The notes under the pieces are model-generated. The model saw only the letters and a program-made list of their open reading frames with translations, was not told where the DNA came from and ran no database searches. This document shows, in pieces, positions 2,655 through 20,934 of a stretch of DNA of 64,000 nt (its first letter is position 1; every line of letters begins with the position of its first letter). The stretch comes from an uncultured bacterium (lineage in GTDB: Bacteria; Cyanobacteriota; Vampirovibrionia; Gastranaerophilales; Gastranaerophilaceae), in NCBI GenBank assembly GCA_949290355.1, contig CASERN010000011.1, positions 62,001-126,000 on the forward strand, written 5' to 3'. The position numbers were made by a program, and so were the translations under genes.

Positions 2655-2819
2655 TATATTTTAGTAACAATATTATTTTTGAATTTTACATATATTGTTA
2701 TTTGAATATTAATTAAGTATGTATAATAAAATTGCATAGCTAAAAATAAGTTTTTTGATTGATTTATGTAGAACGAAAATTTTGTACAATGGAAAAAGGT
2801 TATAAAATAGAGGTTTTTT

Positions 2820-4165: not shown

Positions 4166-4713
4166 ACATTTCAAATAACGTTAAACAAGCATATATAGAA
4201 AATATAAAGGCTAGTCCGTTAAAGGTATTATTAGAAGAAAAGATTTTTGTGTGTTTTGATGAACGTAAAAAGCCTTATAACCCTAATACTGCACAAGGAG
4301 CAAAATGTAATGATAATAGTACTTGGGGAACTTTTGATGATGCTGTAAGATTATATGTATCAGATCCAAGAATGTATGGGATTGGGCTTGAATTTAGTAG
4401 TTTATCCAATGGGAAAAAACTCGCAGGAATTGATATTGATGCCTGTATAGATGAAGATGGGAATATTTCTGCTGAGGCTTTTGATTTGATCAAAGCTGTT
4501 GATTCTTATACAGAGTATTCACCACGCGGTAAAGGTATTCATATACTGTTTTTTATGGATAATGATGCGGAAAGAATATGTAATAAGTTTAATATTTCTG
4601 AAACGGGATATTCTGTAAATTCAATTGATAGCTGGTGCAGTCATATTGAGTTTTATAATGCAAGTCATTATTTTACGATAACAGGAAAGGAAGTTGATTA
4701 TGAAAGAAATTAA
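4162..4713 (+). CDS. PrimPol-type primase-polymerase domain protein
   Basis: The 183-residue product starts at GTG, with AAGGAG about eight bases upstream. Catalytic-type aspartates lie in AGIDIDACI (D91, D93), followed by the family signature YTEYSPRGKGIHI (residues 116-128) and SHYFTITGK (168-176). These are the conserved blocks of the primase-polymerase domain at the N-terminus of plasmid and phage replication proteins, which makes primers or short DNA. The frame ends at TAA right where the usual linker to the helicase should begin, and that linker continues in the next frame. Confidence 0.72.
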   Translation: MNISNNVKQAYIENIKASPLKVLLEEKIFVCFDERKKPYNPNTAQGAKCNDNSTWGTFDDAVRLYVSDPRMYGIGLEFSSLSNGKKLAGIDIDACIDEDGNISAEAFDLIKAVDSYTEYSPRGKGIHILFFMDNDAERICNKFNISETGYSVNSIDSWCSHIEFYNASHYFTITGKEVDYERN

Positions 4714-4954
4714 AGAAAGAACTGATATAGTTCTAAATATTTATAGTAAATACAAAATGAAAAATTGTAGTATAAATCTTGCACATAATTTGCCCACAAA
4801 AGTTCGTGAAAAATTACAGCAATATTTATTAAAGAATAACAAATTTAAAAATTTGTATAACGGGAATAGGCATTTCCCAGATGAAAGCCGTTGTGATATG
4901 TCTTTGATCGGTTATTTAAAACAAATTAGTAATGATAAAGAAGTAATAAAATGA
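4700..4954 (+). CDS. Linker fragment of primase-helicase
   Basis: It continues the primase in another frame. KERTDIVLNIYSKY corresponds to the segment that follows the PrimPol domain, and NRHFPDESRCDMSLIGYL is the typical SRSEADMAL-like block before the helicase. ATG 4700 has AGGAAG six bases upstream, so re-initiation after the first piece is possible. A TTG start at 4694 would also work. It ends at TGA 4952-4954, after which the same frame continues as LFLDSPYFKSKDSYHKW, a natural continuation. Probably a fragment of one broken gene. Confidence 0.55.
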   Translation: MKEIKERTDIVLNIYSKYKMKNCSINLAHNLPTKVREKLQQYLLKNNKFKNLYNGNRHFPDESRCDMSLIGYLKQISNDKEVIK

Positions 4955-6088
4955 CTGTTTTTAGATAGTCCATATTTTAAAAGTAAAGACAGTTATCATA
5001 AATGGAAAATTGAAGTTAGGGAAGATTATTTTGAAAGGACTTATAACAAATGCACAGCAGATATTAATATTAATGAATCTGGTATTATCCAATCAAAACA
5101 TTCAGCTCAAATAAGTAATATAATTCAGTCTATAAATATAGTACAAGCTGCAGATGATTTTGAATGGATTATTGAAAAATTGTTTGCATTAAAGTTTATA
5201 AGTGTTCTTTTTAGTGAGCCAGGCGGTGGTAAGACATGGATAATTTTGGATACTTGCATTAAATTGTCATTGGGGCTTACAGTATTTAATGGAATTGATA
5301 CTGATCCACATACAGTACTTTTACTGGAAGGTGATGTTCCTGATACTTTGATAAAAGAACGTTTAAATAAACTAAAAATAACTCCTGATTATAATAGGTT
5401 TAAATATGTAAATCGCTATAATGCAGAAAGGCAAGGTATCAATTTAAATCTTTCCAATGAAGAGGGACGTAAAAATTTTGAAACTATTATAAGGGAATCG
5501 TCTGCAAGATTCATTGTTATAGATACATTGATATCCTTTATAGATGATGAAAAAGATGCAGAAGTCGTAAAAAAGGCGATCGATCATTTAAGAGCTGTTG
5601 CTGATAAATATAATATTCATATTTTAATATGTCACCATACAAGAAAAAGAGAAAGTAAACAAAAACGAAAAAAGCTTGATCAGTCTGATTTAATAGGGAC
5701 ATCAGTTATTGCTAGATTTTCAAGTATAATACTAGGTATTGATATTGGTGATCGATATAAACTGTTATCAACTAAGAAAACTTGGTTTGAACCAGTTCCG
5801 ACTATGGAACTTAGTATTTCTGATACTGATGATGATAGGGTTGAAATTAAGTATGAAGAATCAACAATATCAGAGTCAAAAATTGAAACAGCATATAAAC
5901 TTATATGGAAATATCTTTTAGATAATAACATTGATAAATTTACGCGAAAAGATATAGAAACAAAATTTAGAAAAGTTTTATCTGAAAGTGCAATACGTGG
6001 AGCAATCAATAAATTGTTGGAAGCAAAACAAATACATGCAGAAGGCAACACAAAAGTAAGGAAATTTTTTGTAAATCAGCTTACATAA
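4955..6088 (+). CDS. RepA/AAA_25-like helicase portion
   Basis: The open frame runs from just after the TGA; the first usable start is TTG 5180, with no ribosome site. It carries Walker A SEPGGGKTW, Walker B FIVIDTL and an ICHHTRKR motif typical of AAA_25/RepA hexameric helicases, then about 80 residues with a winged-helix look (SAIRGAINKLLEAKQI). It would unwind DNA for replication of the mobile element. Without fusion to the upstream fragments its expression is doubtful. Confidence 0.7.
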   Translation: MFLDSPYFKSKDSYHKWKIEVREDYFERTYNKCTADININESGIIQSKHSAQISNIIQSINIVQAADDFEWIIEKLFALKFISVLFSEPGGGKTWIILDTCIKLSLGLTVFNGIDTDPHTVLLLEGDVPDTLIKERLNKLKITPDYNRFKYVNRYNAERQGINLNLSNEEGRKNFETIIRESSARFIVIDTLISFIDDEKDAEVVKKAIDHLRAVADKYNIHILICHHTRKRESKQKRKKLDQSDLIGTSVIARFSSIILGIDIGDRYKLLSTKKTWFEPVPTMELSISDTDDDRVEIKYEESTISESKIETAYKLIWKYLLDNNIDKFTRKDIETKFRKVLSESAIRGAINKLLEAKQIHAEGNTKVRKFFVNQLT

Positions 6089-6133
6089 CATCTAAATTAT
6101 CTGAATATCTATTTCTATTAATATAGCTAATGT

Positions 6134-6165
6134 TTTCATTCGGATTTATATATATCCGAATGAAA
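6134..6165. promoter_or_regulatory. 12-base perfect inverted repeat before nuclease gene
   Basis: TTTCATTCGGAT and its complement are separated by eight bases. It lies between the helicase stop and the nuclease gene, and no T-run follows on either side. It may be a terminator of low strength or an operator. Confidence 0.4.
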
Positions 6166-6256
6166 CACAAGCTAAGCCTAGCTATTAATTCATTCAGTTG
6201 GCGATTACCCCTGTGTGTTAAATAAAAATTATATTAGGTATTAATTATTTTTGTTC

Positions 6257-6262
6257 TATAAT
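6257..6262 (+). promoter_or_regulatory. -10 box TATAAT, leaderless spacing
   Basis: TATAAT ends seven bases before ATG 6270 and no ribosome binding site is present, so transcription would begin at or next to the start codon. Confidence 0.5.
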
Positions 6263-6269
6263 AACTGTA

Positions 6270-8267
6270 ATGAAAAAGATTTTAGCAATTGCGTTAATAT
6301 TGACAACAGTGTCAATCATACCTGTATCTGCATCAGTTGAACATAAGGTAATTAAGGTTATTGATGGGGATACTGTATATGTTGACTTTAACGATAACGG
6401 CATTGCAGAACAAGATGAAAAAGTCCGCATCAATGGTATTGATACGTTTGAAACTAAACTCAATGACGGACTTAATTGGCAGATGAAGCTTTATAACCTT
6501 ACTCAAGATGAAGCTTTAGGACTTGGGTATTATGGTAAAGAATTTGCTAAAAAAGAGTTGCTGAATAAGTCTGTAAGAGCTGAATACACAGCAGAAGAAA
6601 AGTTAGATAAGAATAACAGGCACCTGATGTCACTCTACTATGATTGCAATAGGCAAGGGAAATGCAAAAGCTATGAAAAAGAAGTCTTGAAAGCAGGACT
6701 TGCGACAATTTATACAAAATCTAACCTTGCAGATGAACTAAAACCATATCAAAATTTAGACAAAATAAAAGCTAATGCAAAAAAATCTCATAGTCTAAAT
6801 CTTGTTGTATTGAATAAGAAAAACGGCAAATACCACAAACCAAGTTGTGAATATGGGTGGATGGCAAGTAAAGCAGAATTAGTTCCGCAATCTAAATTTT
6901 GGAATAAAAAGTACAAGTCTTCCTGTTGTTGTTTTGCATGCAAAGATAGTGAAAAAGATGCTATTAGCCAAGAACTTAAAGAAAATTTTGACATCTATCA
7001 GGCTCCTTATAAGCATTCGGTAGAGATAGTTCCTAATATTGACGCAAATAAAAAACAAAAAATAAAGACAAGTGTAATGTTGCTTTTCAACAATCCAATT
7101 CAATACAATATGTTTCCCTCAGACAAAACCAGAACTATATCTGGTAGGGTTTTAATTGATGAATTGAATAAATTGAAGGGAGAAGATATTTATCTTGCGA
7201 CTTATGGTATAGCTGAACAACCAGAAATAGTTAATGCTTTCATAAAAGCTCAAAAACGTAAGAATAAAATTTTTGGTATTGCAGATGTTGATATCTACAA
7301 TAGAAGTGTTTATAAAGATACCTTTTATGCAATGAGAGATTTTGGGAGTTGGAAAACTGATTACGCAGTAGATAGAGCTATTACTGATAGAATTATTAAA
7401 GATACAGCAGAAGGGCGTAATGCTGAAAAGGGAACTTACAATGGTAATATAATGCACAATAAATTTGTTACTCTCGGTAAAAACAGAGTATGGACAGGAT
7501 CTACAAATTTAAGCTCTTCTGGTACAGGCGGATTAAATTGTAACCTAAATGTCTTAATTGTTTCCCCTGAAATTACTTACGCATATATCCAAGAAGCAAA
7601 ACAGATGTATTCAGGGAAATTTCATTACACAAAAGTTCCTTATCATATCAAAAATGTAAAATTGGATGATGGCTCAATTTTGTCTGTATATTTTTGTCCT
7701 AATCCTGATGTTATCGATGAGTTAGTAAGTAAGATAAATTCAGCTGAAAAGTATGTCTATGTGTCGATGTTTTTCTTAACTCACGATAGAGTTATCGAAG
7801 CTCTTTCAAATGCAAAACAAAGGGGCGTAGATGTAAAAGTTATTACTTGTGCATCTGCTGCTAATGAAAAATACTCTAAACATACAAAGATACGAGAAAT
7901 GGGTATCCCTCTAAAAGTTGAGAATTGGACTGGTAAAATGCATATGAAAACCATTGTTATTGATGATAAATTAGTAACTGTAGGATCAATGAATGCAACC
8001 AAGACAGCATCAGAAAAGAATGATGAGAATATTGTTTTTATAGAGAGTAACAAACACGCAGCACAAGCAAGAGGTATTTTTGAAACATTATGGAATGATA
8101 TTCCTGATAAGTGGTTGACAGGTACTCCAAAAGCAGAAAGTCCAGATTCAGGCAATTCTTGTAATGATGGATTAGATAATGACCACGATTGGAAATACGA
8201 TGCTCAAGATCCTGATTGCGCAGGGTTTGACTATTCTAAGGCTTATCGACTAAGATGGTCAGAATAA
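6270..8267 (+). CDS. Secreted nuclease: TNase-like domain fused to phospholipase-D-type domain
   Basis: The 665-residue protein has a signal peptide (about residues 1-21). A staphylococcal-nuclease domain follows: IDGDT at 31-35 and VRINGIDTFET with R53, D58 and E61 spaced exactly as the catalytic Arg35/Asp40/Glu43 of the prototype. Next is a small Cys/His cluster (HKPSCEYGW, SSCCCF), then two HKD motifs, MHNKFVTLGKN with GSTNLSSSG and MHMKTIVIDDK with GSMNAT. Near the C-terminus is an Asp-rich CNDGLDNDHD...DPDC motif of calcium-binding type. It probably degrades extracellular or periplasmic nucleic acid. The start is leaderless. The gene overlaps the convergent PAPS-reductase-like gene by 25 bases. 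Confidence 0.82.
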   Translation: MKKILAIALILTTVSIIPVSASVEHKVIKVIDGDTVYVDFNDNGIAEQDEKVRINGIDTFETKLNDGLNWQMKLYNLTQDEALGLGYYGKEFAKKELLNKSVRAEYTAEEKLDKNNRHLMSLYYDCNRQGKCKSYEKEVLKAGLATIYTKSNLADELKPYQNLDKIKANAKKSHSLNLVVLNKKNGKYHKPSCEYGWMASKAELVPQSKFWNKKYKSSCCCFACKDSEKDAISQELKENFDIYQAPYKHSVEIVPNIDANKKQKIKTSVMLLFNNPIQYNMFPSDKTRTISGRVLIDELNKLKGEDIYLATYGIAEQPEIVNAFIKAQKRKNKIFGIADVDIYNRSVYKDTFYAMRDFGSWKTDYAVDRAITDRIIKDTAEGRNAEKGTYNGNIMHNKFVTLGKNRVWTGSTNLSSSGTGGLNCNLNVLIVSPEITYAYIQEAKQMYSGKFHYTKVPYHIKNVKLDDGSILSVYFCPNPDVIDELVSKINSAEKYVYVSMFFLTHDRVIEALSNAKQRGVDVKVITCASAANEKYSKHTKIREMGIPLKVENWTGKMHMKTIVIDDKLVTVGSMNATKTASEKNDENIVFIESNKHAAQARGIFETLWNDIPDKWLTGTPKAESPDSGNSCNDGLDNDHDWKYDAQDPDCAGFDYSKAYRLRWSE

Positions 8268-9034
8268 CACTGTATAAGATTGTAGTGACAGTCTTTTTTC
8301 TGTTGTTTCTTGCTGCTATTTTTCAGGTAACTTGTTTTAATCTTTTCAATATTTTGAGGTAAAATGAGTTCTCTTAAAAGCATATCCATATTCCAACCAA
8401 TTTTATTTACTCCATCATCTATTTCATATTCCATAGCTTTTTTAAATAGATCAGGATGCTTTTCATACAGTCTAAGCCAACTTATTTTTGGTTGGTAAAA
8501 GCAGAAATAGCAGCCGGAACGACAACTCCAAGAATAATATGCAGGGAGTCCTATTCCTGATTTCTTTAAAATTTCTTCTACATCTTGTTTATTAATACTA
8601 TATTCAATAAACGGATATAGTTGCTTGATATTGTTCCCTTGATAGTCTTCTGGTTTTGCTCTATGAGCTTCGTCTGCTCTAATACCTACATACAAATTTT
8701 TTACTGCAGCTGCATTTAGCGAATGGAGATATTTACTAAACGGCTTAGTTTTCATTTCTACTGTACACCATCGTCTATGTGGAGCAGGTAGATTTTTATA
8801 TATCTGGATCAAGTGCTCAAAGTTTTTCTCCGCTCTTATAATTCTAATCTTTTTTCCAAGAAAAATTTCAATTTTATTCAGATAGTCGTATGTTTCAGGA
8901 AGGTCGCATTCGGTGTCTGAAAACACAAGTTCTAGTTTCTCAAAAATCTCAGGCATATTCTCTTTCATAAAGAAAGCAAGTGCTGTAGAATCTTTACCTC
9001 CAGATAGAGATAAAATATGATATTCTTTTTCCAT
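8243..9034 (-). CDS. PAPS-reductase/DndC-like ATP pyrophosphatase
   Basis: This 263-residue protein begins with the PP-loop ILSLSGGKDSTALAFF (residues 7-22), which activates a substrate by adenylation. It has Cys in RRWCTVEMKTKP and a C-x3-C-x2-C group (SCRSGCYFC), as in DndC-like or iron-sulfur PAPS-reductase family members found in phages and defence islands. The genuine sulfate-assimilation enzyme is less likely because no sulfur genes lie nearby. A good site AAGGAG precedes the ATG. A hairpin followed by four T residues lies in its leader (9063-9092), possibly an attenuator. Confidence 0.78.
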   Translation of the reverse strand: MEKEYHILSLSGGKDSTALAFFMKENMPEIFEKLELVFSDTECDLPETYDYLNKIEIFLGKKIRIIRAEKNFEHLIQIYKNLPAPHRRWCTVEMKTKPFSKYLHSLNAAAVKNLYVGIRADEAHRAKPEDYQGNNIKQLYPFIEYSINKQDVEEILKKSGIGLPAYYSWSCRSGCYFCFYQPKISWLRLYEKHPDLFKKAMEYEIDDGVNKIGWNMDMLLRELILPQNIEKIKTSYLKNSSKKQQKKDCHYNLIQCYSDHLSR

Positions 9035-9435
9035 TAGTTCTCCTTATAATACGCTACACAAAAGCACAGCAAAGCATCTGCTTCACTGTGCTAAAAAACT
9101 TTCAGTTACTCCTTGCAAACACAAAAATCATCAAGGATTTTGCTTAACAAGAGGTGTATTACCTTTTATATTATTCACTATGATTAAGAATTTCTAGTAG
9201 TTTTTAATGATTTTTTAATTATTAAGAAATTTTTGAGTAAGGAAATGGACTAGGTTTAAAGATCTCTGAAAGGCTTGTCTTATAAAAATTATAGCAGTAA
9301 TCACCTAAAGGTGAAAAGTTATTAAATAAGTCAGTTTTTTATATAGTAGGAGCTATTTTGCAAGATTTTTCTCAGCAGCAGCGCTAAAGATTAGTTTTCT
9401 CCAAACTTTTTATATTAAATAAAAGGAGAAAACTA
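9035..9435. other. Divergent intergenic region with hairpins
   Basis: About 400 bases without a gene. It holds the leader hairpin of the PAPS-reductase-like gene (9063-9092), a small TCACCT/AGGTGA hairpin near 9300, and the inverted repeat that covers the ribosome site of the next gene (9390-9437). Promoters for both divergent genes must lie here but none is clear. Confidence 0.5.
9063..9092 (-). promoter_or_regulatory. Leader hairpin, possible attenuator
   Basis: On the minus strand a seven-base stem (AGCACAG with CTGTGCT) with an inner five-base stem (AAGCA with TGCTT) is followed by TTTT, about 30 bases before ATG 9034. Confidence 0.35.
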
Positions 9436-9437
9436 AT
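9390..9437 (+). promoter_or_regulatory. 13-base inverted repeat masking the ribosome site and start codon
   Basis: ATTAGTTTTCTCC (9390-9402) is the exact complement of 9425-9437, which contains the GGAG ribosome site and the first two bases of ATG 9436. The RNA hairpin (22-base loop) would hide the translation start, suggesting translational control. Confidence 0.55.
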
Positions 9438-9879
9438 GAACAAAACAACATCTTCAAAAACAAGTATCAAGGACTTGAATGCTGAGTTCGCACGATTATT
9501 TAAGGCTTATGGCTTTACAAAGGCAGTAAAGAGATTAAGAGAAAGCACTGATGGTACTGCTGAAGGTTTTACTCAGCTAGATGCTCTCAAATTGAGTTTG
9601 GAGGAGCAACCATATGTAGTGTTTGTAACTTTTGAGCAAACAGAGAATGATGCTGACTATAAGCAGCAAGTGATGAATTTTGAAGACAATTTACTTGATG
9701 CGTCTTATAGATTTTTAAATTTAGATGTTATATCAAAAACTAAACAGAATGTACCCATAATAGGTTATCTGGTTTGGGATGACAACTCTAAAACCGATGA
9801 TGAATTATTTTATACTATAGAGAACTGGAAAAAAGACTATAACAAGGCAAGAGTATTAATCTATAAGGGCAGGATCTAA
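9436..9879 (+). CDS. Unknown 147-residue soluble protein
   Basis: No family is recognised. The product is soluble, acidic and mixed alpha/beta (PYVVFVTFEQTEND, VPIIGYLVWDD, ARVLIYKGRI look like strands; the N-terminus is helical). GGAG lies seven bases before the ATG but sits inside a perfect hairpin. A clear terminator follows at 9909. It is therefore a stand-alone gene with controlled translation, next to the XRE regulator in the island. Confidence 0.6.
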   Translation: MNKTTSSKTSIKDLNAEFARLFKAYGFTKAVKRLRESTDGTAEGFTQLDALKLSLEEQPYVVFVTFEQTENDADYKQQVMNFEDNLLDASYRFLNLDVISKTKQNVPIIGYLVWDDNSKTDDELFYTIENWKKDYNKARVLIYKGRI

Positions 9880-9906
9880 ACTTTATCATATGTCGGGGTT
9901 CATTTT

Positions 9907-10335
9907 CTAGGAGTGGTGCTGATCACTCCTTTTTTTAGTTGTGATTAATTTTTCTTGTTTTACTTTAGTATTTTGTATTATAGAATTTTTTTGTTTCGTT
10001 GTTAATCTTTGACTGTCCTTTATTGTTTTAATAATATTACGATATAAAAGTAATTCTTCATCTGTTGCATTTTCTAATAGAGCATAAATTTCATCTTTTA
10101 CGGGATTAAAAATTTTTAAATTATTGATATCCAAAACTCTTATATCCATTTGCAGAACATGTACAATTTTTAATACTGTATCTATAGAAGGAGAATTTTT
10201 TCCCATTTCTATACGATAAATCTGTTTTTCATGTTCATGTACATCAATTTTTTCTGCAAGCTGAGCCTGGGAAAGTCCTTGCCTTTTCCTTTGTTCTTTT
10301 ATTTGTCTTCCAAGGTTTATACGCTCGTCAATCAT
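9907..10335 (-). CDS. XRE-family transcription regulator
   Basis: The 142-residue protein has an N-terminal Cro/C1 helix-turn-helix (LSQAQLAEKIDVHEHEKQIY, then IEMGKNSPSIDTVLKI, about residues 19-57) and a helical C-terminal part. It resembles the XRE protein at 41653 in length and layout. GGAG eight or nine bases before the ATG supports the start. It is divergent from the eight-gene vWA/PP2C/kinase operon, and a long inverted repeat in the shared promoter region is the likely operator, so it probably represses that operon and itself. Confidence 0.82.
   Translation of the reverse strand: MIDERINLGRQIKEQRKRQGLSQAQLAEKIDVHEHEKQIYRIEMGKNSPSIDTVLKIVHVLQMDIRVLDINNLKIFNPVKDEIYALLENATDEELLLYRNIIKTIKDSQRLTTKQKNSIIQNTKVKQEKLITTKKRSDQHHS
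9909..9936 (+). terminator. Rho-independent terminator of the 9436 gene
   Basis: Stem AGGAGTG/CACTCCT with an eight-base loop is followed by seven T. It overlaps the last codons of the convergent XRE gene. Confidence 0.75.
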
Positions 10336-10378
10336 AAATTGTTCTCCATTGTCATATATTAGTTATATGATAGAGCGT

Positions 10379-10434
10379 ATTTGCACTATTTAAATGACAA
10401 ATAAGATTAATATAATATAATAAATAGTGCAAAT
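10379..10434. promoter_or_regulatory. Likely XRE operator (14-base inverted repeat)
   Basis: ATTTGCACTATTTA (10379-10392) is repeated inverted at 10421-10434. ACTATT recurs near 10438, 10460 and 10555. It lies between the repressor start and the operon start, as expected for an operator. Confidence 0.6.
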
Positions 10435-10570
10435 TTATACTATTTTCTACGTTAAATAAACTATTTTTAAAGAAAATTATTGACTAAAGCTTAAACAAAT
10501 GTAAAAATATTAGACAAATAGGATATATTCATACAAATAAAATGTACATATTTTTACTATTAAAGGACAT

Positions 10571-10882
10571 ATGAATACACTTATACCATTAATTTATCCT
10601 AATGGATATGATATTATTACAATATTTACTACTTTTTTTGTATATACAGAAAGTAAAAACTATTTATTTACAAGTTTGTTATTGGCTCTACTATACGTAT
10701 GTACAAGAATAGGTTATTGTGCTGGGTGTGGAGTTAGACATGTATTATTAACACAGTTTTATGTATCAAATTCTCCGGCAAATAATATTATTGGTTTTTT
10801 AATGTTTAAATATGGTTTTCAATGCATTGGAATTATTTTGATACATTATGAAATTCTCTCAATTTTAGGAGTTATTAAATAA
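10571..10882 (+). CDS. Small membrane protein, first gene of triad operon
   Basis: The 103-residue hydrophobic protein has about three membrane segments (residues near 13-25, 30-47, 73-100) and a CAGCG motif. No family is recognised. AAAGGA lies a few bases before the ATG. Its TAA overlaps the next ATG (TAATG), so the two are translationally coupled. Being first in the operon it may be the membrane sensor or anchor. That is inference. Confidence 0.65.
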   Translation: MNTLIPLIYPNGYDIITIFTTFFVYTESKNYLFTSLLLALLYVCTRIGYCAGCGVRHVLLTQFYVSNSPANNIIGFLMFKYGFQCIGIILIHYEILSILGVIK

Positions 10883-11070
10883 TGAAAAATTTAACAGATT
10901 TTGAAAATAATATTAATAATGGTCCTGGCTGTTTAGTATGTATAATTTGCTTGATCATCATAATTATACTTTGGCAATTTGTACCATCTGATAAATCCAA
11001 AGAAGATAATAGTAAAGAAACACAGAGTGTATCAAGTATGATTGTGTATATTTTGGAGGTAAATACATGA
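10882..11070 (+). CDS. 62-residue single-pass membrane protein
   Basis: It has one membrane helix (CLVCIICLIIIIILWQF, about residues 17-33) and a charged Lys/Glu/Ser-rich tail. Overlaps with both neighbours (TAATG upstream, ATGA downstream) argue that it is real in spite of its size. No family is known. Confidence 0.6.
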   Translation: MKNLTDFENNINNGPGCLVCIICLIIIIILWQFVPSDKSKEDNSKETQSVSSMIVYILEVNT

Positions 11071-11534
11071 TATTTATTAATTTTCTAAAACGTTTACTTG
11101 CACTATTTTTATATTTTGGTTGTATTCTGTTGTCAGTATATTTTATTTATTATAGTTTGACTTTTAAAGATGTTAAACCAGATTGGTTATATATTATTGA
11201 AATGACTTTAGCTCCTATAATATTATTTGTAATAGCCTATAAAATTAATATTACAAGAGTTTGTCCAAATTGCAACAAAAATAGAGGAATTGAGATTTCA
11301 GAAGCACCAATAGATGCATCACCTTGGGATACTTATGAATCTGGGGATTATAAATATAGGGAACGTAATGTTAGGTATGAAATTACAAGACAATGTAATA
11401 ATTGTAATTATGTAAAAGTTAATTATGAAGATAGAAATGAAAGACAGCAAGTTGGTTTAAGTACAATAGGTGCTTTAAGGCAATATGAAAGAGAAAAAGA
11501 ATATCGTAGAGAGGCAAGAAGGAGAGGATATTAA
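11067..11534 (+). CDS. Two-pass membrane protein with zinc ribbon
   Basis: The 155-residue protein has two membrane helices (about residues 8-32 and 40-58), then a cytoplasmic-type zinc ribbon with C66/C69 and C110/C113, and an Arg/Glu-rich tail (EKEYRREARRRGY). GGAGG lies just upstream and a four-base ATGA overlap precedes it. The ribbon recalls the one in the kinase of the same operon. Function unknown. Confidence 0.65.
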   Translation: MIFINFLKRLLALFLYFGCILLSVYFIYYSLTFKDVKPDWLYIIEMTLAPIILFVIAYKINITRVCPNCNKNRGIEISEAPIDASPWDTYESGDYKYRERNVRYEITRQCNNCNYVKVNYEDRNERQQVGLSTIGALRQYEREKEYRREARRRGY

Positions 11535-11959
11535 TGAATTTAAATTGTTTTGAAGAAAAAGTTTTACAAATTATATTTCTTTCAATAATTGCTTCTAGTA
11601 TTATTTTGGCTTGGAATATTTACTCAGCAAAAAATCCGAAACCTATTGCTAAAGAAAATAAGATAGAATCTGAACAGAAAAACCAACCTAAAGAAAATAA
11701 TGCTCCCCCAAAAACAGTAAATAAGGTTAATGAGATTCCCACAAATAATTTGAAGCAAGAAGTTTCCAAATTTTCTAATGTCGAAAATTCATCAGGAATA
11801 GATGAAAAAATACAATTGTATGCACCAGTTCCTCAATCTTATGAAGAAACTTCAACTACCCAAGAAATAAATTTAAAAAATGAATTATTTGATACTAATT
11901 CTAATGATACAAATGTCGAATCTCAGAATGTAGGAGAACTTGAGAATGAATTATTTTAA
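11534..11959 (+). CDS. Single-pass membrane protein with disordered tail
   Basis: Of 141 residues, a membrane helix occupies about 10-29 and the rest is Asn/Glu/Lys/Pro-rich and probably disordered. ELFDTNSND and the terminal LENELF form a repeated acidic motif. It starts in a TAATG overlap. No family is recognised. It may be a periplasmic or cytoplasmic scaffold in the operon. Confidence 0.6.
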   Translation: MNLNCFEEKVLQIIFLSIIASSIILAWNIYSAKNPKPIAKENKIESEQKNQPKENNAPPKTVNKVNEIPTNNLKQEVSKFSNVENSSGIDEKIQLYAPVPQSYEETSTTQEINLKNELFDTNSNDTNVESQNVGELENELF

Positions 11960-12491
11960 ATATTTTTTATTTTTAGCTTTACTGATATTTTCTAGTAATA
12001 ACGTATTCGCTGAAAGTTGGATTGATACAGGAACTTATAATAATGCTCAAATATTTCTTGATATTGATAGTATAAAAAAAAATGACAGATTTATTTTTTA
12101 CAATATAAAGCGAGAAAATTCAGAATCTGGTGAAGGCTTAATAATTACAATTCAATCGGATCCAGAAAATAATTTTGCTGGGATCGTAACACAACAAACC
12201 TATACTGAATTTTATCAAAAAGATTTACCATATTTATTAGTAGGACAACAAAAAGCAAAAACAATGAAACAATTAGAACCCAATTCTCCAATGTTTACTG
12301 CAAATAAAATGGCTATAAATTATTTGAAGCAACAATCCTTAAATGAACAGCAACAAACTGCTATTCCTCAATATAATAATATGCCAGCTTGGCAACAAAA
12401 AACTAACAATATTTTAAATACCGTAAACCAAACAAATACAACATGGCAAAATATAATAAATACACTATATTTATTCAGATTTAGATATTAA
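11946..12491 (+). CDS. Exported protein with TonB-protein-like N-terminal domain
   Basis: Start ATG 11946 is preferred to TTG 11940 because AGGAG lies nine bases upstream. The product is about 181 residues. A signal peptide (to about residue 22, ending NNVFA) is followed by SWIDTGTYNNAQIFLDIDSIK, which resembles the region after the signal peptide in the TonB-like protein at 48413, including Trp, IDxDS, NFxG and a late NxY. The C-terminus is Gln/Asn-rich. Likely exported to the envelope. It overlaps the preceding gene by 14 bases. Confidence 0.62.
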   Translation: MNYFKYFLFLALLIFSSNNVFAESWIDTGTYNNAQIFLDIDSIKKNDRFIFYNIKRENSESGEGLIITIQSDPENNFAGIVTQQTYTEFYQKDLPYLLVGQQKAKTMKQLEPNSPMFTANKMAINYLKQQSLNEQQQTAIPQYNNMPAWQQKTNNILNTVNQTNTTWQNIINTLYLFRFRY

Positions 12492-12505
12492 AGGAGAAAT
12501 AAATT

Positions 12506-13183
12506 ATGTCAGAACAAACACCATATTTACCAGTAACAGTTTTTGAAACAGTAGAGTTTGCCGAAAATCCAGAGCCAAGATGCCCTTGTATTCTTCTTTT
12601 AGATTGTTCAAGTTCAATGCAAGGGGCTCCAATTAAAGAGCTCAATAATGGTTTAAAGATATTTAAAGATCAGCTTATTTCTGACAATTTAGCAGCCAAA
12701 AGAGTTGAAGTAACTGTTATTAAGTTTTCTTCAGATATAGAATTAATTAATGAATTTGAAGTTGCAGAAGAGTTTGAACCACAGGAATTAACAGCGGAAG
12801 GGTTAACAAGTATGGGAAAGGCTATAGAAGAAGCTATTCAACTTCTTTCTGCCAGAAAAGAAATATATAAACGTAATGGTATCTCTTATTATAGACCTTG
12901 GATTTTTATGATTACAGATGGATGCCCTACAGATAACTGGGAACGTGCAGCAGAAAAGGTAAAAAGAGGTGAAAGTAACAAGGAATTTGCATTTTTTGCT
13001 GTTGGTATAAACAATGCAGATATGAACAGATTATCCCAAATTGCAGTTCGAAAACCATTAAAATTAAAAGGTCTTGATTTTAGAGAATTATTTCAATGGT
13101 TGTCAAATTCGATGCATTCTGTATCAAGTTCAACACCTGAAGATAAAATTAAACTTGAGGTGCCAGGATGGAGTGAAATTTAA
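12506..13183 (+). CDS. TerY-like von Willebrand factor A protein
   Basis: The 225-residue protein is one vWA domain with a complete metal-dependent adhesion site: DCSSSM at 33-38, a Thr in LTSMG and ITDGCPTDNW. This matches the TerY family, which partners with a PP2C phosphatase and a kinase in the so-called TerY-P triad. AAAGGAG lies upstream. The next gene begins immediately after its TAA. It probably acts as a cytosolic protein-interaction or phosphorylation-target module. Confidence 0.88.
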   Translation: MSEQTPYLPVTVFETVEFAENPEPRCPCILLLDCSSSMQGAPIKELNNGLKIFKDQLISDNLAAKRVEVTVIKFSSDIELINEFEVAEEFEPQELTAEGLTSMGKAIEEAIQLLSARKEIYKRNGISYYRPWIFMITDGCPTDNWERAAEKVKRGESNKEFAFFAVGINNADMNRLSQIAVRKPLKLKGLDFRELFQWLSNSMHSVSSSTPEDKIKLEVPGWSEI

Positions 13184-13936
13184 ATGTGTTGGAGTTATTA
13201 TGCAGCATCAGAAAAAGGTTATGCACACATAAAAAACGGAAAACCAAAACAGGATTATATTCTTACCGAAATATTCAATCAAAGCATTATTTTTGTAATT
13301 GCAGATGGAGCAGGAACTGCAAATTATTCCGATATTTCATCTAATCTGCTCTGTCATTTTTTTGTGAAAAAGGTTAAGCAATGGTTAAAAACAAATGAAT
13401 TAGATTCTTTGGACAAATGTGATATTGAACAGTGGATAAAAATTTTCCAAAAAATTCTTATGCGTATAAATAGATATTATAACACTGATGATATAAGAGA
13501 TTTTGCATCAACTATGATACTTGCTGTTGTAGAAGATTCAAAGGCTGTATTTTGTCAAATTGGAGACGGATGTATTGTTATAAATTCTAATAACAATCTT
13601 CAATGCGTATTTTGGCCACAAAATGGTGAATATATAAATACAACAAATTTTGTAACAGATAAAAATATTTCTCAAAAAATTATGTTTAAAATTTTATACA
13701 ATAATATTACAGAGATTTCAATATTTACAGATGGATTAGAATCTATAGCATTAAATTTTTCTAAAAAGGAACCTCATGTTCCATTTTTCACTCCATTTTT
13801 TAATTTATTAAAAAATTGTCCTCCTGGAGAAAATAAAGAACTTAGTGATGCATTAGCAGAGTTTTTAAATTCTGAATTAATATGTAAAAAAACGTATGAT
13901 GATAAAACTATTGTTTTTGGAATAAAAGGAGCATAA
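13184..13936 (+). CDS. PP2C-family protein phosphatase
   Basis: This 250-residue protein shows the ordered PP2C motifs: KPKQDY (about 21-25), VIADGAGTANYSD (38-50), FASTMILAVV, QIGDGCIVI, IFTDGLES and a final DDKTIVFGI. Metal-binding aspartates are present at D41, in GDG, in TDG and near the end. It would dephosphorylate Ser/Thr in partners of the adjacent kinase. Its stop overlaps the kinase start (TAATG). Confidence 0.88.
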   Translation: MCWSYYAASEKGYAHIKNGKPKQDYILTEIFNQSIIFVIADGAGTANYSDISSNLLCHFFVKKVKQWLKTNELDSLDKCDIEQWIKIFQKILMRINRYYNTDDIRDFASTMILAVVEDSKAVFCQIGDGCIVINSNNNLQCVFWPQNGEYINTTNFVTDKNISQKIMFKILYNNITEISIFTDGLESIALNFSKKEPHVPFFTPFFNLLKNCPPGENKELSDALAEFLNSELICKKTYDDKTIVFGIKGA

Positions 13937-15972
13937 TGATCTTTACTGATGAACAAGGTAATATTATAAAACTAGGTAAAGAAATTGCGAAAGGTGGAGA
14001 AGGAACTGTTTTTAATGTTCAAGATACCAAAAAACAGGTTGTAAAACTATATAATGAGGAATTTTTGGAATCGAGGAAATTTAGTAAACTTAAAATAATG
14101 ACCTCGCTTTATAATGATAATATAGGTAAGTTTGCAGCTTGGCCAAGAATTATTGTTTACAATAACAATAAGCCATGCGGATTTATTATGGAGAAATTTT
14201 CTGATTCTATAGAAATTCATGAACTCTATGGCAGTGGTAGTCGTAAAAAATATTTTCCAAATGCAAATTGGAGATTCTTAGTTCATACTGCTAGAAATCT
14301 AGCTAGTGCTGTAGAAACTTTACATAGAAAAAATATTATAATTGGGGATATTAATCAAGGTAATATTTTGGTCAATAAGCAAGCTATGGTAAAGTTTATA
14401 GATTGTGATTCTTATCAGATTGAATCAGGTAATGATTTATTTTTATGTGAAGTAGGAGTCCCAGAATATACTCCTCCTGAACTTCAAAGTAAATCTTTTA
14501 GAGATACAAGACGCACATTTAATCATGATAATTTTGGATTGGCTGTTCTTATTTTTAAAATACTTATGATGGGGAGGCATCCGTATAGTGGTGATGGGGC
14601 TCCATCTGAAATAGGAGAAGCGATCAAGAAAAATTATTTTTGTTATGGTGAAGCAGCTAAGGTTAATGGTATATATACACAACAAGCCTCTTTTCTGTAT
14701 GAAATATTAGATGTTAAGTTACAAAGTTTATTTAATGATGCATTTACCAATAATATGTCAAGACCAAGTGCTGTTTTGTGGAAGAATGCATTATCTGAAG
14801 TAGAAGCAACACTTAAAATCTGTCCAGATAATTCTATGCACATTTATTCTGACTGTTTAAATTACTGCCCTTGGTGTGAATTTGAAAAGCAAGGAGTATT
14901 TTATTTTGGGAAATCACAAGTTAAAAATAAAAAAAGACATTATAGAAAATTAAATAATATTTTGAATAATAAAAAAAATCATACGCAAAATATGCCTCAA
15001 GGTGTTATTAATAATACAAAACCTAATCAGAGTTTAACTAAAAGACCAAAGTATATTACTAAGAATTACTTAAGATTATTATTACAGCAGTTAGAACAAA
15101 TCCCAACGCCACAGAAAGTTATATTTAGTAAATTAGCCAAACCTACACCAGTACCTTGGCCATCTGAATGCAAAAAAAAACTTTGGCAGATACTTTTAGT
15201 CAGAATAATACATTTTATTGTAATTATTTCAATTCTATTATTATGGATATCAGCAATAATAAAATCTATAAATTTTGATTTAATGAAATTGGTTATACAT
15301 TCAGTAATACTTTTATCATTTCTTTTAATTAAACCATATAATCAGTCATTTAAGATGGAATATGATAAACGTAAAAAAGATTTAGAATTATCACATCAGC
15401 AATTAAAAGATTTTGAAAAGTATTGGAGAAAATATAGTTCAGATAAAAAATTTAACAAATATTACAAAAAATCAAAAAAAAATTATTTTAAAGCATTAAA
15501 AATTGTAAGTAAAATTTCGAAAGCTAATAAATTAATCCCTCTTAAAAGTTATAACAATCAAAAAAGAGAGTTTTTAAAAACATTTAGTATATATAGTAGT
15601 AAAGAAATTAATATAGGAAAATTTTTAAATTTTAAACTAAGATTATTAAATATAAAAACTGCTAATGATCTAAATAATTTTAATTTATTTCTTTTGGGAA
15701 GTGACGGTGAATTGTTAAAAAAGTGGAAAAGACTTAAAGAAGAAGGATTTTTGTATAAAAATAACTATAATAATATTAGATTAGCTCAGGATAATCTTTA
15801 TAAAAGATATGAAAAAAATTTGAATAAGTATACCTACTTGTTTGAAAATACTATATATGAGTTACAGACAATATCTAAGGACATAACATTTTTTAGAAGT
15901 ACTAATAAATCTCAACTTGAAGCCTTAAGACAAAAATATTTAAGGAACAAGTTAAGTTTAAGATTTTTTTAA
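13936..15972 (+). CDS. Membrane-anchored serine/threonine kinase with zinc ribbon
   Basis: The 678-residue protein opens with a kinase domain (1-290): Gly-loop AKGGEGTVF, Lys37, catalytic GDINQGN with D138 and N143 (replacing HRD), and D156 in IDCDSY replacing DFG. Then come a ribbon with C296, H302, C307 and CPWC (311-314), two membrane helices (about 419-443, 450-466) and a long Lys-rich helical tail. The architecture is that of TerY-P triad kinases, but the membrane helices and tail make it longer. It is last in the eight-gene operon. Confidence 0.86.
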   Translation: MIFTDEQGNIIKLGKEIAKGGEGTVFNVQDTKKQVVKLYNEEFLESRKFSKLKIMTSLYNDNIGKFAAWPRIIVYNNNKPCGFIMEKFSDSIEIHELYGSGSRKKYFPNANWRFLVHTARNLASAVETLHRKNIIIGDINQGNILVNKQAMVKFIDCDSYQIESGNDLFLCEVGVPEYTPPELQSKSFRDTRRTFNHDNFGLAVLIFKILMMGRHPYSGDGAPSEIGEAIKKNYFCYGEAAKVNGIYTQQASFLYEILDVKLQSLFNDAFTNNMSRPSAVLWKNALSEVEATLKICPDNSMHIYSDCLNYCPWCEFEKQGVFYFGKSQVKNKKRHYRKLNNILNNKKNHTQNMPQGVINNTKPNQSLTKRPKYITKNYLRLLLQQLEQIPTPQKVIFSKLAKPTPVPWPSECKKKLWQILLVRIIHFIVIISILLLWISAIIKSINFDLMKLVIHSVILLSFLLIKPYNQSFKMEYDKRKKDLELSHQQLKDFEKYWRKYSSDKKFNKYYKKSKKNYFKALKIVSKISKANKLIPLKSYNNQKREFLKTFSIYSSKEINIGKFLNFKLRLLNIKTANDLNNFNLFLLGSDGELLKKWKRLKEEGFLYKNNYNNIRLAQDNLYKRYEKNLNKYTYLFENTIYELQTISKDITFFRSTNKSQLEALRQKYLRNKLSLRFF

Positions 15973-16010
15973 GCTAAGATATATAGTACCTAGGTCTATT
16001 GCTAATCAAT

Positions 16011-16619
16011 TCAACTTATTCTCTTTTGATATTTTTGCACCAATTTATAAAAAGAAGTTGGTTTCATTCCAAGTCTTTTCATAGCTTCCCTAGCAGTAAT
16101 TTTTTTTGCTTCCCATGTATTGTAAGTTTCTTCCCAATTGCTAGGATACTCAATAGCAGGTCTTCCAAGTTTTTTCCCTTTCGCTTTAGCACAAGCAATC
16201 CCTTCAGCTTGTCTTTGTTTAATGAAAGCTCTTTCTTGCTCTGCAACATACCCCAGTAGCTGCAAAACTATATCTGATATTACCTGCCCTATAAGTCCAT
16301 CGGTTCTTGTAGTATCAAGCAAAGGCAAATCAATTACCCTTATATTAGCTCCGATTTCACCTGTAATCTCTCTCCATTCATCGCAGATTTGCTTGTAATT
16401 TCTTCCAAGTCTGTCAATAGATTTGATAACAAGCAGATCCCCTTTTCTAAGTTGAGCTTTCATAGCCTGATACATTGGCCGATCAAAATTTTTACCGCTT
16501 AACTTATCAATAAAAATATCTCGTTCATTTATCCCCATATCAAGCATAGCTTGAACTTGTCTGGCTTCATTCTGATCTGCAGAAGATACTCTACAGTATC
16601 CAAAAGTTTTTGCTTCCAT
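16011..16619 (-). CDS. Small serine recombinase (resolvase/invertase family)
   Basis: The product is about 202 residues. The catalytic region YCRVSSADQNEARQ lies at the start, SGKNFDRPMY and SIDRLGRNYKQI follow, and a C-terminal HTH (ITAREAMKRLGMKPTSFYKL) binds DNA. ATG 16619 is preferred over an upstream ATG at 16649 because AAGGA precedes it and the family starts here. It ends in TGA. Repeated ATTCGT motifs directly upstream (16661-16727) look like its res site. It would resolve cointegrates or plasmid dimers. Confidence 0.88.
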   Translation of the reverse strand: MEAKTFGYCRVSSADQNEARQVQAMLDMGINERDIFIDKLSGKNFDRPMYQAMKAQLRKGDLLVIKSIDRLGRNYKQICDEWREITGEIGANIRVIDLPLLDTTRTDGLIGQVISDIVLQLLGYVAEQERAFIKQRQAEGIACAKAKGKKLGRPAIEYPSNWEETYNTWEAKKITAREAMKRLGMKPTSFYKLVQKYQKRIS

Positions 16620-16660
16620 AAAAAAATTCCTTTTCGTTTCTATTCTCATTATACAATATA

Positions 16661-16727
16661 TATTCGTAAAAGTCTATATATAAAAAGAATATTCGTAAAA
16701 TAATTTAACAAGATTAACGAATAATAT
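16661..16727. promoter_or_regulatory. res-like site of resolvase
   Basis: ATTCGT occurs at about 16662 and 16690 and inverted (ACGAAT) at 16717, in an AT-rich stretch just upstream of the resolvase. Spacing and inverted order recall resolvase binding sites, which would also control the gene. Confidence 0.45.
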
Positions 16728-16843
16728 TTAAAGTCAAAAAACGATGGTTGTAAAAGTTTACCTTTGCGAAAGGTGCTGGATTGAATTTGTATTTTTAATT
16801 ATTTCTTGTATATTAGAAGAAAAATCAAAAGGAATTTTTATAG

Positions 16844-17737
16844 ATGGATAGAACTAATGCACCAAAAATTTTATACAAATATATGCCTGCAGAGACTGCA
16901 TTAAAGGTGTTACAAACTCAAACTATCCGATTTAGTGATCCAAAAAAATTTAATGATCTGTACGATTCAGATGTTCCTATAAAATTGCGTGTAAATAGAA
17001 ATCTGACTTCAAAAGATTTTATTGCTATGCTAGAAGAATTTGAAAAAAATCCAGAATTGAAGTTATATTTGCCTGCAGGGATGACGCTAGAAAAAATGAA
17101 AGGATTAGTTAAACAATATAGATATTCAATAAATCCGGTAGATCACCTTAATAAAACTTTGGATAATATGAGAAAAAATATGCGGGTACTTTCGTTGTCC
17201 TCTAATAGAGATAATTTATTAATGTGGGCACATTATAGTAATAATCACAAAGGTATAGTTATAGGTTTTAAAAGAAATTCGGATTTATTAAAGTATGCAA
17301 CACCTGTTTTATATAGTAAAAATATCCCTGTAATAGACGGAAAACTATTAAGAGATTTTAAATTGAGCACTAAAGAGGCTTTAAGAGAATTACAAGTCCT
17401 TTTTCAAACAAAGAGTCTTGATTGGGAGTATGAGCAGGAATGGAGATGTGCACTTGATGTAGTAAAACGTTATGAATACTGTTTAAGGAAAAATCCAAAC
17501 TTAAAATATCAATCATCGGTGCTGTATAAAGAATTATTCTGCCAGAAGGAATTTGTTCATATCCCTTTTTTGCCAGAAGATGTTCAAAGTATATATCTAG
17601 GAGCAAATATAAATATAATAGATGAAAACATAATCATTAATATCATAAGAGAAAATTATCCTGGAGTAAGTATTTTTAAGGCATCTCGTAATGAAAATAA
17701 ATTTATGTTGGATTTTAAGCGTATCTTAGATTCTTGA
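16844..17737 (+). CDS. DUF2971-family protein
   Basis: The 297-residue protein has the DUF2971 pattern: ILYKYMPAETALKVLQTQTI near the start with FSDPKKFNDLYDS, then LSLSSNRDNLLMWAHYSNNH and GIVIGF in the centre and WEYEQEWRC later. The family is common in accessory and defence regions and its activity is poorly known. AAGGA precedes the ATG. It lies directly upstream of the KAP NTPase on the same strand (71-base gap), so they may be co-transcribed. Confidence 0.82.
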   Translation: MDRTNAPKILYKYMPAETALKVLQTQTIRFSDPKKFNDLYDSDVPIKLRVNRNLTSKDFIAMLEEFEKNPELKLYLPAGMTLEKMKGLVKQYRYSINPVDHLNKTLDNMRKNMRVLSLSSNRDNLLMWAHYSNNHKGIVIGFKRNSDLLKYATPVLYSKNIPVIDGKLLRDFKLSTKEALRELQVLFQTKSLDWEYEQEWRCALDVVKRYEYCLRKNPNLKYQSSVLYKELFCQKEFVHIPFLPEDVQSIYLGANINIIDENIIINIIRENYPGVSIFKASRNENKFMLDFKRILDS

Positions 17738-17808
17738 TGTGAATATGTACAAATCAAACAATTGAAATTTATATAATAGTAGTAAAGTAATAAAAAAGGT
17801 AAAGGATT

Positions 17809-19347
17809 ATGAGCTTAGATAAAGCAAATATATTTAAACTTAAAATAGAAGAATTTGAAAAATATAAACAAGAACCTTTCTTAGACTGTTTTGAAAGTAC
17901 AAAAATTTTCGCAAAAGCTTTAAAAAATGATATTGATACAAAGGAGACCCCACATTCTTTACTTCTTTCTGCAGAGTATGGAATGGGAAAAACTTTTTTT
18001 AGCACAAGATTTACGCAGTATCTTAAAAAATGTAAGTACGAAGTAATATATTTCAGTGCTTGGGAAAATGATTATATGCAGAACCCTTTTCTTGCATTTT
18101 CAAAAGCTATAATTAGTTATGCATATAACAGATTTACGGAAGAAAAATATGTAAAAAAATTATCAAATTTATTTGAAGCTGCTGAAAAAATAGTTAGTGC
18201 AATGTCATTAACATCAAGAATTGGTATACCAGGAGTCGCTGAAATGGATGTTACCATTGATGCTGGTAGATTACTTGAGTCATTTAAGGAAAATTGTGAT
18301 CCAATTATTGATTTTAGAAGCAAACTTTCATCATTTATTTCTAAAATTCCTAAAAAGAAACTAATTGTTATAGTTGATGAACTTGACCGTTGTAGACCTG
18401 ACTATGCAATGAAAACTTTAGAATGTATAAAACATTTTTTTGATATTGAAGGTTTATTTATTATTTTACCTACAAATAAAAATGCTTTAAATAATTGTAT
18501 AAAAGCATTATACGGAATTGAGAATGGTAATTTAAATGGTAAAGAAAATTATTTTCAAAAGTTTTTTAATGATGAAAGAGTTTTACAATCACCAACTGAA
18601 GAAGATTATTTATATGTTGTAAAGCAATATATATGTGAAGACAAATTAAAAGAGGCTTTGGACAAACATCTGCTATCAGGTGTAGCTGCTGATTATAATA
18701 GCATTCAAAATTTACAGATATGTTTTGCGAAATATGCTTACAAGGCAAAATTAACAGTTAGAGAAGTTAAAGATTTTTCATTAGAACTAGTAAGAATCTG
18801 TAATAATTTTTTTGAACCAATAAGAACAGAATGGTTAGCATGTATATTTGCTAATAAAAATAAAGAAAGAGGTGCTCATTTTCAATATCCGGTAAATAGT
18901 GAACATTGTTTTTATTGTGAACAGTATAAGAATTTAGAGAATAGTAGTAATGGTAAACAAGTACTGTTAGATTTAAGTTTGTGTAATTCGAAATTGAGAG
19001 AAATAACGCTGCTGAGAGAATGGGATTTTGGTAATTATGATACATACCAGAAATATATTAATTTAATTAATAAAATTAAATCACCACAGAAAAAATTTAA
19101 AACATATACAGATGTTTATAATTTTTTGGAATATCTTATTGCTGATATTACAGCGCTTGCAACTTTAGTTTCAAACAATCGTGAGTTAGAAAATCATTTG
19201 AATAAAATTAAATCAGTTTTAGAAGAACATAAAAATGCAATACTTAAGTACCAAAGAAAATATGGCTCTGATGATGATGATATTAATAGAAGGCAAAAAT
19301 ATATAGATGTTGTTAATAACCCTGAATTAATATATTTTAATGTTTAG
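17809..19347 (+). CDS. KAP-family P-loop NTPase
   Basis: The 512-residue protein has Walker A-like EYGMGKTFFSTRF (57-69, Lys61), YFSAWENDYMQNPF and the family Walker B signature VDELDRCRPDYA (189-200), which identifies KAP NTPases. The C-terminal half contains helical regions and a Cys pair. No clear membrane helices are visible, although other members carry them. It is the intact relative of the partial gene at 1-503, on the opposite strand. A role in phage exclusion is inferred from the family. Confidence 0.84.
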   Translation: MSLDKANIFKLKIEEFEKYKQEPFLDCFESTKIFAKALKNDIDTKETPHSLLLSAEYGMGKTFFSTRFTQYLKKCKYEVIYFSAWENDYMQNPFLAFSKAIISYAYNRFTEEKYVKKLSNLFEAAEKIVSAMSLTSRIGIPGVAEMDVTIDAGRLLESFKENCDPIIDFRSKLSSFISKIPKKKLIVIVDELDRCRPDYAMKTLECIKHFFDIEGLFIILPTNKNALNNCIKALYGIENGNLNGKENYFQKFFNDERVLQSPTEEDYLYVVKQYICEDKLKEALDKHLLSGVAADYNSIQNLQICFAKYAYKAKLTVREVKDFSLELVRICNNFFEPIRTEWLACIFANKNKERGAHFQYPVNSEHCFYCEQYKNLENSSNGKQVLLDLSLCNSKLREITLLREWDFGNYDTYQKYINLINKIKSPQKKFKTYTDVYNFLEYLIADITALATLVSNNRELENHLNKIKSVLEEHKNAILKYQRKYGSDDDDINRRQKYIDVVNNPELIYFNV

Positions 19348-19458
19348 TAAAATTTAAATATTTTTACATGGCTTTAAAACTTAGATTAGTTAAGATTTTG
19401 TAGCAAAAAATAATATTTAGTATTTTTCTAATTCCAGATAGTAAAAATGGAATGAATA

Positions 19459-20907
19459 ATGAAAGAAAAAGCTGTTATATATGCTAGGGTCTCATCTTTA
19501 TCCCAAGAAAAAGATGGTTTCTCTATTCCTGCACAAATTGATTTATTAAATAGTTATGCTGAAAAGAATAATATTGAAGTAGTGAAGATCTTTGATGAAG
19601 CTGAAACAGCAAAACAAGCAGGTCGAACAAAGTTCAATGCAATGTTAAAATTTCTTTCGCAGTACAAAGATGTATCCACTATACTTGTTGAAAAAACGGA
19701 TCGCCTTTATCGAAACTTCAAAGATTATGTTGAGTTAGATGTTGATAGAACAAGATATAAGGTTTGTCTTGTAAAAGAAGGAGTAGTATTGTGTAATAAT
19801 TCAAATTCCCATGAAAAATTAGTTCATGGGTTAAAGGTTTTGTTAGCAAAAAACTTCATTGATAATTTGAAGGAAGAAACTCAAAAGGGACGTTTAAAAA
19901 AAGCTAGTGAAGGTTACTTTATAGGGCAAGTCCCTTATGGGTATAAAAAGTTGGATACAAAAACTACAGTTATTAATTCAGATACAGCACCTTTTGTGAG
20001 ACGAGCTTTTGAGTTGTATGCTGATGGTTATTCTATAGAAAAAGTTAGAGAAACGCTAAAAGATGAAGGGTATATATATAATAAATCTTCTATAACAATT
20101 TCTAAGGGACACCTGCATAAGATGCTTAAGAATGTAGCATATATTGGAATTATCGATTTTAGAGGGAAATTTTACGAAGGGAAACATGAACCTATTGTAT
20201 CAAATGATCTTTTTAATAAAGTACAAAGACAGTTTAAGAAAGACTATAAGCCAGATAAAATATCTAAGCACAATTTTGCATTTACAGGGCTAATAACCTG
20301 TGCAGAATGTGGATGTGCTATTACTGCTGAAATTAAAAAAGGTAAGTATATATACTATCATTGTACCGGTTATAAAAAAAATTGTTCTCAAAAAGAATTT
20401 ATAACCGAAGAAAAACTTATTGAGCAATTTGATACTGCTGTAAGAGCAGTAACAATAAGTGAAAAGCATTTTGAATATATAAAAAAAGGACTAAGGGAAA
20501 GTTTTATAGATAAAAAGAAATATGATTTGGAACATTATGATGTAATGGTAAAAAATGTGAAAAAGATTCAAAACAGACTTGATAAGTTATACTTAGATAA
20601 ACTTGATGGGGAGATCAGTACTGAAGTATGGAGAGAAAAGCATGCTAAATGGACTGAAGATCTTGAAGTGTTGCAATCGAAAATATCAGCATATTCAAAA
20701 GCTAGTAAAAAATATTATGAAGAAGGTATTAAATATATCGAACTGTTAAAAAATGTGTATTCAATATACTCTGCACAATCTAATTCTGAAAAAGCAAAAC
20801 TTATAAAAATATTACTATCGAACTGTAAACTAAGAGATAAAAAACTAAGCTATGACTATAATAAACCATTTTCTTATTTTGTAAAAAACGACCAATGTCA
20901 TAAAAAA

Positions 20908-20934
<27 letters not shown>
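19459..20934 (+). CDS. Large serine recombinase (integrase)
   Basis: The 491-residue protein has an N-terminal catalytic domain (YARVSSLSQEKDGFSI with the nucleophile Ser, then EKTDRLYRNFKDY), a recombinase domain (PYGYKKL, HKMLKNVAYIG), a zinc ribbon (CAECGCAIT and CTGYKKNC) and a C-terminal coiled coil. It would integrate and excise the island. Its last nine or so codons are inside the 3' end of the tRNA-Arg on the other strand, so the tail was created by integration at that site. Confidence 0.9.

Follow-up and report, generated by a model that had tools for sequence, protein, structure and literature searches.

An eight-gene operon beside a phage-type repressor gene

We analysed a stretch of 64,000 nucleotides (the window) from an uncultured bacterium of the Gastranaerophilaceae, gut bacteria related to the cyanobacteria, and this report concerns an operon of eight tightly packed genes within it, most of which overlap or abut. 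Five of these genes encode small membrane or exported proteins, here called P1 to P5, while the other three encode a von Willebrand factor type A (vWA) protein, a PP2C phosphatase and a serine/threonine kinase. The operon, the divergent repressor gene beside it and the candidate operator between them comprise the following features.

9907..10335, minus strand: XRE repressor of the Cro/CI type, divergent (HTH_3 E=2.1e-13; matches phage regulator PHROGs)
10379..10434, no strand: candidate operator, a perfect 14-nt inverted repeat with arms at 10379-10392 and 10421-10434
10571..10882, plus strand: P1, 103 aa, two predicted membrane helices
10882..11070, plus strand: P2, 62 aa, one strong predicted membrane helix; TAATG junction with P1
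11067..11534, plus strand: P3, 155 aa; ATGA junction with P2
11534..11959, plus strand: P4, 141 aa; TAATG junction with P3
11946..12491, plus strand: P5, 181 aa; overlaps P4; alternative start TTG 11940
12506..13183, plus strand: vWA protein of the YegL/TerY type (PF00092 E=1.5e-11)
13184..13936, plus strand: PP2C phosphatase of the PphC/YegK type (PF13672 E=6.1e-48); abuts the vWA gene
13936..15972, plus strand: Ser/Thr kinase of the YegI type with a predicted membrane anchor (PF00069 E=2.2e-13); TAATG junction with the PP2C gene

The initial annotation had drawn an operon of eight overlapping or touching genes, and we found this operon to be real and correctly drawn; all gene coordinates agree, except that ATG 11946 is the likelier start of P5. 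Codon use exceeded that of shuffled sequence in all eight frames (z 2.2 to 7.7, the lowest value belonging to the 62-aa P2), and a purine-rich Shine-Dalgarno-like motif lies upstream of P1 to P5, the vWA gene and the kinase gene. The divergent XRE gene and the inverted-repeat operator proposed at the same time were both recovered, and the HTH_3 and PHROG matches identify the repressor as phage type. The arms of the repeat flank a promoter-like ATGACA-16-TATAAT (10394-10421), which matches the consensus at 11 of 12 positions.

The vWA-PP2C-kinase triad and its relatives

Judged by sequence, the last three genes are a known triad of the E. coli YegL-PphC-YegI type, which is related to TerY-P. 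The order vWA-PP2C-kinase, with overlapping or abutting genes in the window, is kept in most other loci. The MIDAS motif of the vWA protein (DxSxS) reads DCSSS at residue 33, with the later T and D visible, and the PP2C protein shows the motifs ADGAG, GDG, TDG and DDK. The expected gene order, the three Pfam matches and a zinc ribbon on the kinase agree with the earlier assignment to a TerY-P-like triad. That assignment came with the remark that no TerD was visible, which holds for the whole genome (no PF02342 match; TerC was not searched), and a Ter-linked function in tellurite resistance is unlikely without TerD in the genome.

The kinase consists of a kinase domain (residues 1 to ~295), a CHCC zinc ribbon (~296-314), a predicted membrane hairpin (~410-470) and long helices, with a degenerate helix-hairpin-helix at ~550-603 whose intact form is found in many relatives. 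A structure model (mean predicted local distance difference test score, pLDDT, 87.7) contains the kinase domain, the zinc ribbon, the helical hairpin at 410-470, a long helical tail and a helix-hairpin-helix-like part, and Foldseek searches with this model returned general kinases only. Across 46 aligned relatives C296, H302, C311 and C314 are invariant, as are the glycine loop, the lysine, the GD.N loop and the DxD motif, and in every one of them a membrane segment is predicted after the zinc site. The architecture therefore belongs to the family and not to this locus; presenting the zinc ribbon, helices and tail as particular to the locus was an overstatement, and we rejected the idea that a membrane-anchored kinase is unusual. 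PADLOC matched the kinase with PD-T4-6, MAD6 and MkoA, which reflects generic kinase similarity.

The E. coli genes yegL-pphC(yegK)-yegI share all three families with the window in identical order. The vWA protein is about 55% identical to E. coli YegL over its full length, and the kinase domain is about 37-41% identical to those of E. coli and of copies on other proteobacterial plasmids. E. coli YegI also carries a zinc ribbon, and it has a membrane anchor such as is predicted for the kinase in the window; as cited in PMC13232886, YegI is bound to the membrane and phosphorylates itself, and PphC dephosphorylates it. The E. coli locus, which adjoins yegD and mdtABC, differs in having neither P1 to P5 nor an XRE gene, and in K-12 yegJ lies between pphC and yegI. 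TerY-P triads have been linked to restriction systems, with an OB-fold version being antiphage (PMC11090510; PMC7699616). They share with the window a vWA protein with a MIDAS, a PP2C phosphatase, a zinc-ribbon kinase and an association with restriction or defence islands. In contrast, the antiphage TerY-P of Gao et al. 2020 has a C-terminal OB-fold on its kinase (PMC11090510), whereas the kinase in the window has a zinc ribbon and a predicted membrane hairpin, and CoCoNuT genes, an operon nuclease and a genomic TerD are all missing here.

The closest kinases come from Gastranaerophilales (Melainabacteria) genomes and are about 50% identical. Within the family, the vWA protein is sporadic, being found in 13 of 383 genomes, some of them fragmentary, spread over 9 genera, and among 97 relatives the kinase occurs in this genome only. 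Seven in-family triads come with three further genes, for a TPR protein, a TonB_2-type exported protein and an HNH nuclease with a membrane anchor, and in two others (L048, L049) the gene for a membrane-anchored Mrr_cat nuclease lies directly upstream of the vWA gene; the remaining cases are a triad alone (L211), a fragment and one cut at a contig end. In a tree, all the in-family vWA proteins that it includes group with that of the window in a single clade (support 100/100). The vWA and PP2C proteins of the HNH-type triads (L050, L053, L056, L059, L208-L210, L212) clade with those of the window, and an exported or TonB_2 protein adjoins their kinase; some have a mobile context, with recombinases beside L050 and L053. 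They differ in having the TPR protein and the membrane-anchored HNH nuclease, in place of which the window has P1 to P4 and the XRE gene. The HNH/TPR/TonB-coupled triad recurs in Gastranaerophilales and is apparently new to the open-access literature. A set of triad, TPR protein, HNH nuclease and TonB-type protein was seen at L050, L053, L054, L056, L057, L059, L208-L210 and L212.

Triads of this kind were found in 494 stretches of species genomes, and they are spread over many phyla and Methanoregula archaea; outside the family the triad is mostly alone, in chromosomes and mobile DNA alike. Searches with tblastn located the E. coli genes, and they also matched comparable triads on plasmids from Cupriavidus, Pseudomonas, rhizobia, Deinococcus and cyanobacteria, as well as on prophage-like contigs. 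In one such contig (L005, 6797-10554), the triad lies between the genes for the terminase large subunit and the portal and is a possible moron. A match labelled as phage (L014) was set aside, as it appears to be chromosomal and not a phage, and to carry a distantly related form of the triad. In several Competibacteraceae (among L066, L071, L072, L083, L085, L099 and L124), a gene for a TetR-like regulator follows the kinase gene.

Small envelope genes on a mobile element

By hydropathy, P1 and P3 have two predicted membrane helices each, and P2 and P4 have one. P3 also contains a zinc-ribbon-like domain with four cysteines (CPNC...CNNC motif), and P4 combines a membrane anchor with a polar tail. 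P3 homologues occur in three other Gastranaerophilales genomes (G364, G380 and G396; E 2e-12 to 3e-8), and were found again by a profile search whose profile had been built including them. A divergent XRE gene followed by a P3 homologue recurs in these three genomes, a small number. The clusters concerned (L213, L214, L215) match the window in the divergent XRE gene and in a P3 with two helices and the four-cysteine domain; they differ in lacking the vWA, PP2C and kinase genes, and P1 and P2, which in the window sit between XRE and P3, were not found there. In L213 and L214, an anchor-plus-tail protein follows the P3 homologue and resembles P4 by architecture, with no significant sequence similarity, and L213 also has a P5-like TonB_2 protein. 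The cluster in G380 is compact, consisting of XRE, P3, the anchor-tail protein and a small membrane protein.

P5 has a predicted signal peptide, a small beta domain, a disordered middle and a helical tail; its structure model is poor (mean pLDDT 49.8) and usable only at residues ~25-87. It is a relative of exported family proteins with a TonB_2 domain, which P5 itself does not have. No match to P3 was found in phage records and viral contigs, and a DNA-level search of positions 10500-13000 against plasmids gave no match. Since the P3 and P5 families are found without the triad, we prefer to see in the eight genes a pair of joined modules and not a single conserved system.

The operon lies on an integrative element whose left end falls just outside the window.

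C11:60711-82923 (genome coordinates), of which 1..20923 lies in the window, no strand: integrative element of 22.2 kb, delimited by a direct repeat of 16 bp (TACCCGAGATGCGATT) at the tRNA-Arg 3' end
~9937-16018, no strand: cargo block missing from the same-genus genomes G022 and G007
16011..16649, minus strand: serine resolvase/invertase (PF00239 E=3.7e-28)
19459-20934: large serine integrase

The right attachment site is at 20908-20923, at the 3' end of the tRNA-Arg gene, and the genome G016 has an empty integration site with one copy of the 16-bp repeat. As the block at ~9937-16018 is missing from G022 and G007, the XRE gene and the operon constitute cargo. The slot is bordered by a gene for a 147-aa protein (9436-9879) and by the serine resolvase/invertase, and the cargo is flanked by a terminator hairpin (9909-9930) that contains the last codons of the XRE gene. 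In other genomes, the same 147-aa gene is followed by genes for AbiH or for type I or type III restriction-modification.

Elsewhere, the element carries an AbiU/AIPR-like abortive infection protein (765-2531), and at 16844-19347 the window has the candidate defence genes PDC-S31 (DUF2971) and PDC-S20 (KAP NTPase). An SspD-like protein of the PAPS-reductase type (8243-9034, PADLOC E=7e-83) adjoins an SNase-plus-PLD nuclease (6270-8267); G007 (L174) has homologues of both, arranged alike, and there they may be core genes of the element. A second KAP-like ATPase was seen at its left end (C11:60968-62566). In the same region of G007 (L174, C1:424000-442000), an operon with zinc-ribbon membrane proteins and TonB_2/PDZ, P5-like and TPR proteins lies directly upstream of the 147-aa slot gene.

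Possible functions of the operon

With moderate confidence, we read the operon as a mobile cassette of two docked modules under a single promoter, most likely a system against phages or other mobile elements. A defence role fits the context, which includes a swappable slot, a defence island and kin coupled to nucleases. The membrane-sensing phosphosignalling or defence system proposed at first thus keeps its defence setting and gives up its standing as one conserved system. Gene order, families, operator, mobility, island setting and the nuclease coupling of kin are shown by the sequence; every functional step is inferred. One module would be the XRE-repressed small envelope proteins P1 to P5, and the other a YegL-PphC-YegI phospho-switch in which the membrane-anchored kinase is opposed by the phosphatase, with the vWA protein probably serving as scaffold or metal sensor. 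At rest, XRE would limit expression and PP2C would keep the kinase inactive; an envelope or DNA-entry event, perhaps detected through the exported P5 and the membrane hairpin, would release the kinase, which would activate an effector arm by phosphorylation. That arm is plausibly the membrane-anchored HNH or Mrr nuclease in relatives, and it would be P1 to P4 in the window. More tentatively, P1 to P5 and XRE could form an undescribed module that acts on the membrane, as effector or for exclusion, and occurs free-standing as well; here it would have been taken over by a switch that is otherwise wired to HNH or Mrr nucleases in this lineage, and the triad would be a plug-in controller with interchangeable effectors.

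The triad was known across bacteria and archaea; what is probably new is its join with five poorly known envelope proteins on a mobile island beside defence genes. The suggestion that the locus was perhaps undescribed is in line with this, as the combination of the triad and the five small genes is apparently new in the open-access literature. In this lineage the triad is repeatedly found on defence islands in company with nucleases and exported proteins, which offers a concrete, testable hypothesis, namely that the triad controls effectors, and the copy in the window, with membrane proteins and no nuclease, bears on whether the effector is swappable.

Several observations weigh against a defence system of this kind. 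No nuclease or known toxin was found in the operon, and PADLOC gave no defence model for the vWA protein and only a weak candidate-model match for PP2C. We found no homologue of P2 and no convincing one of P1, for which the 383 family genomes yielded only marginal matches to larger membrane proteins that we did not trust. The initial annotation had named the occurrence of the small genes mostly without the triad as evidence against a joint system, and this is partly what we see: each of the three P3 homologues adjoins a divergent XRE gene in a genome with no triad, and P5-family proteins are present in 19 of the 97 relatives, mostly without it. The docking could thus be recent and functionally loose. 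The immediate neighbours listed outside the family are mixed and by inspection mostly not defence-like, so nuclease coupling is a trait of this lineage and not of the triad generally, and the triad could in itself serve as a general switch for stress. To our knowledge, the biochemistry of E. coli YegI and PphC comes with no known phenotype or role.

In such a general switch for envelope or metal stress, the triad would sense metal or membrane state and phosphorylate envelope proteins to tune the surface, the island being incidental. We consider this somewhat unlikely, although the wide range of the triad and its mostly stand-alone occurrence are in its favour, as are the proposal that TerY-P is a metal-sensing switch (PMC11090510), the TonB_2 domains in relatives of P5 and the predicted membrane anchor of the kinase. 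However, it fits poorly with the sporadic distribution of the triad in the family, with a slot that is filled by restriction-modification or Abi genes elsewhere, with the nuclease coupling in kin and with the phage-type repressor on the operon. Slightly less probable is a stabilisation or exclusion module resembling toxin-antitoxin systems, in which toxicity would come either from the kinase or from the small membrane proteins, PP2C and XRE would restrain it, and the element would benefit through maintenance or exclusion of rivals. XRE control with a symmetric candidate operator, the mobile setting and the compact cluster in G380 are compatible with such a module, and KKP of Pf prophages, a tripartite kinase-kinase-phosphatase toxin-antitoxin system also active in phage defence, provides a precedent (PMC11341870). 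KKP resembles the operon in its mobile kinase-phosphatase balance, which in KKP acts in phage defence; it differs in its pair of kinases, which bear CSD or FHA domains, against one kinase here, and in having no vWA protein, zinc ribbon or envelope genes. Against this reading, the operon exceeds known toxin-antitoxin modules in size, and toxicity is conjectural.

We regard it as improbable that the XRE-envelope cluster and the triad are merely chance neighbours, unrelated cargoes with separate functions. This would account for the three P3 clusters without the triad and for the in-family triads without P1 to P4, but the genes overlap or abut throughout, the gap between P5 and the vWA gene is just 14 nt with no terminator in it, and independent triads of the family have P5-type exported proteins beside the kinase.

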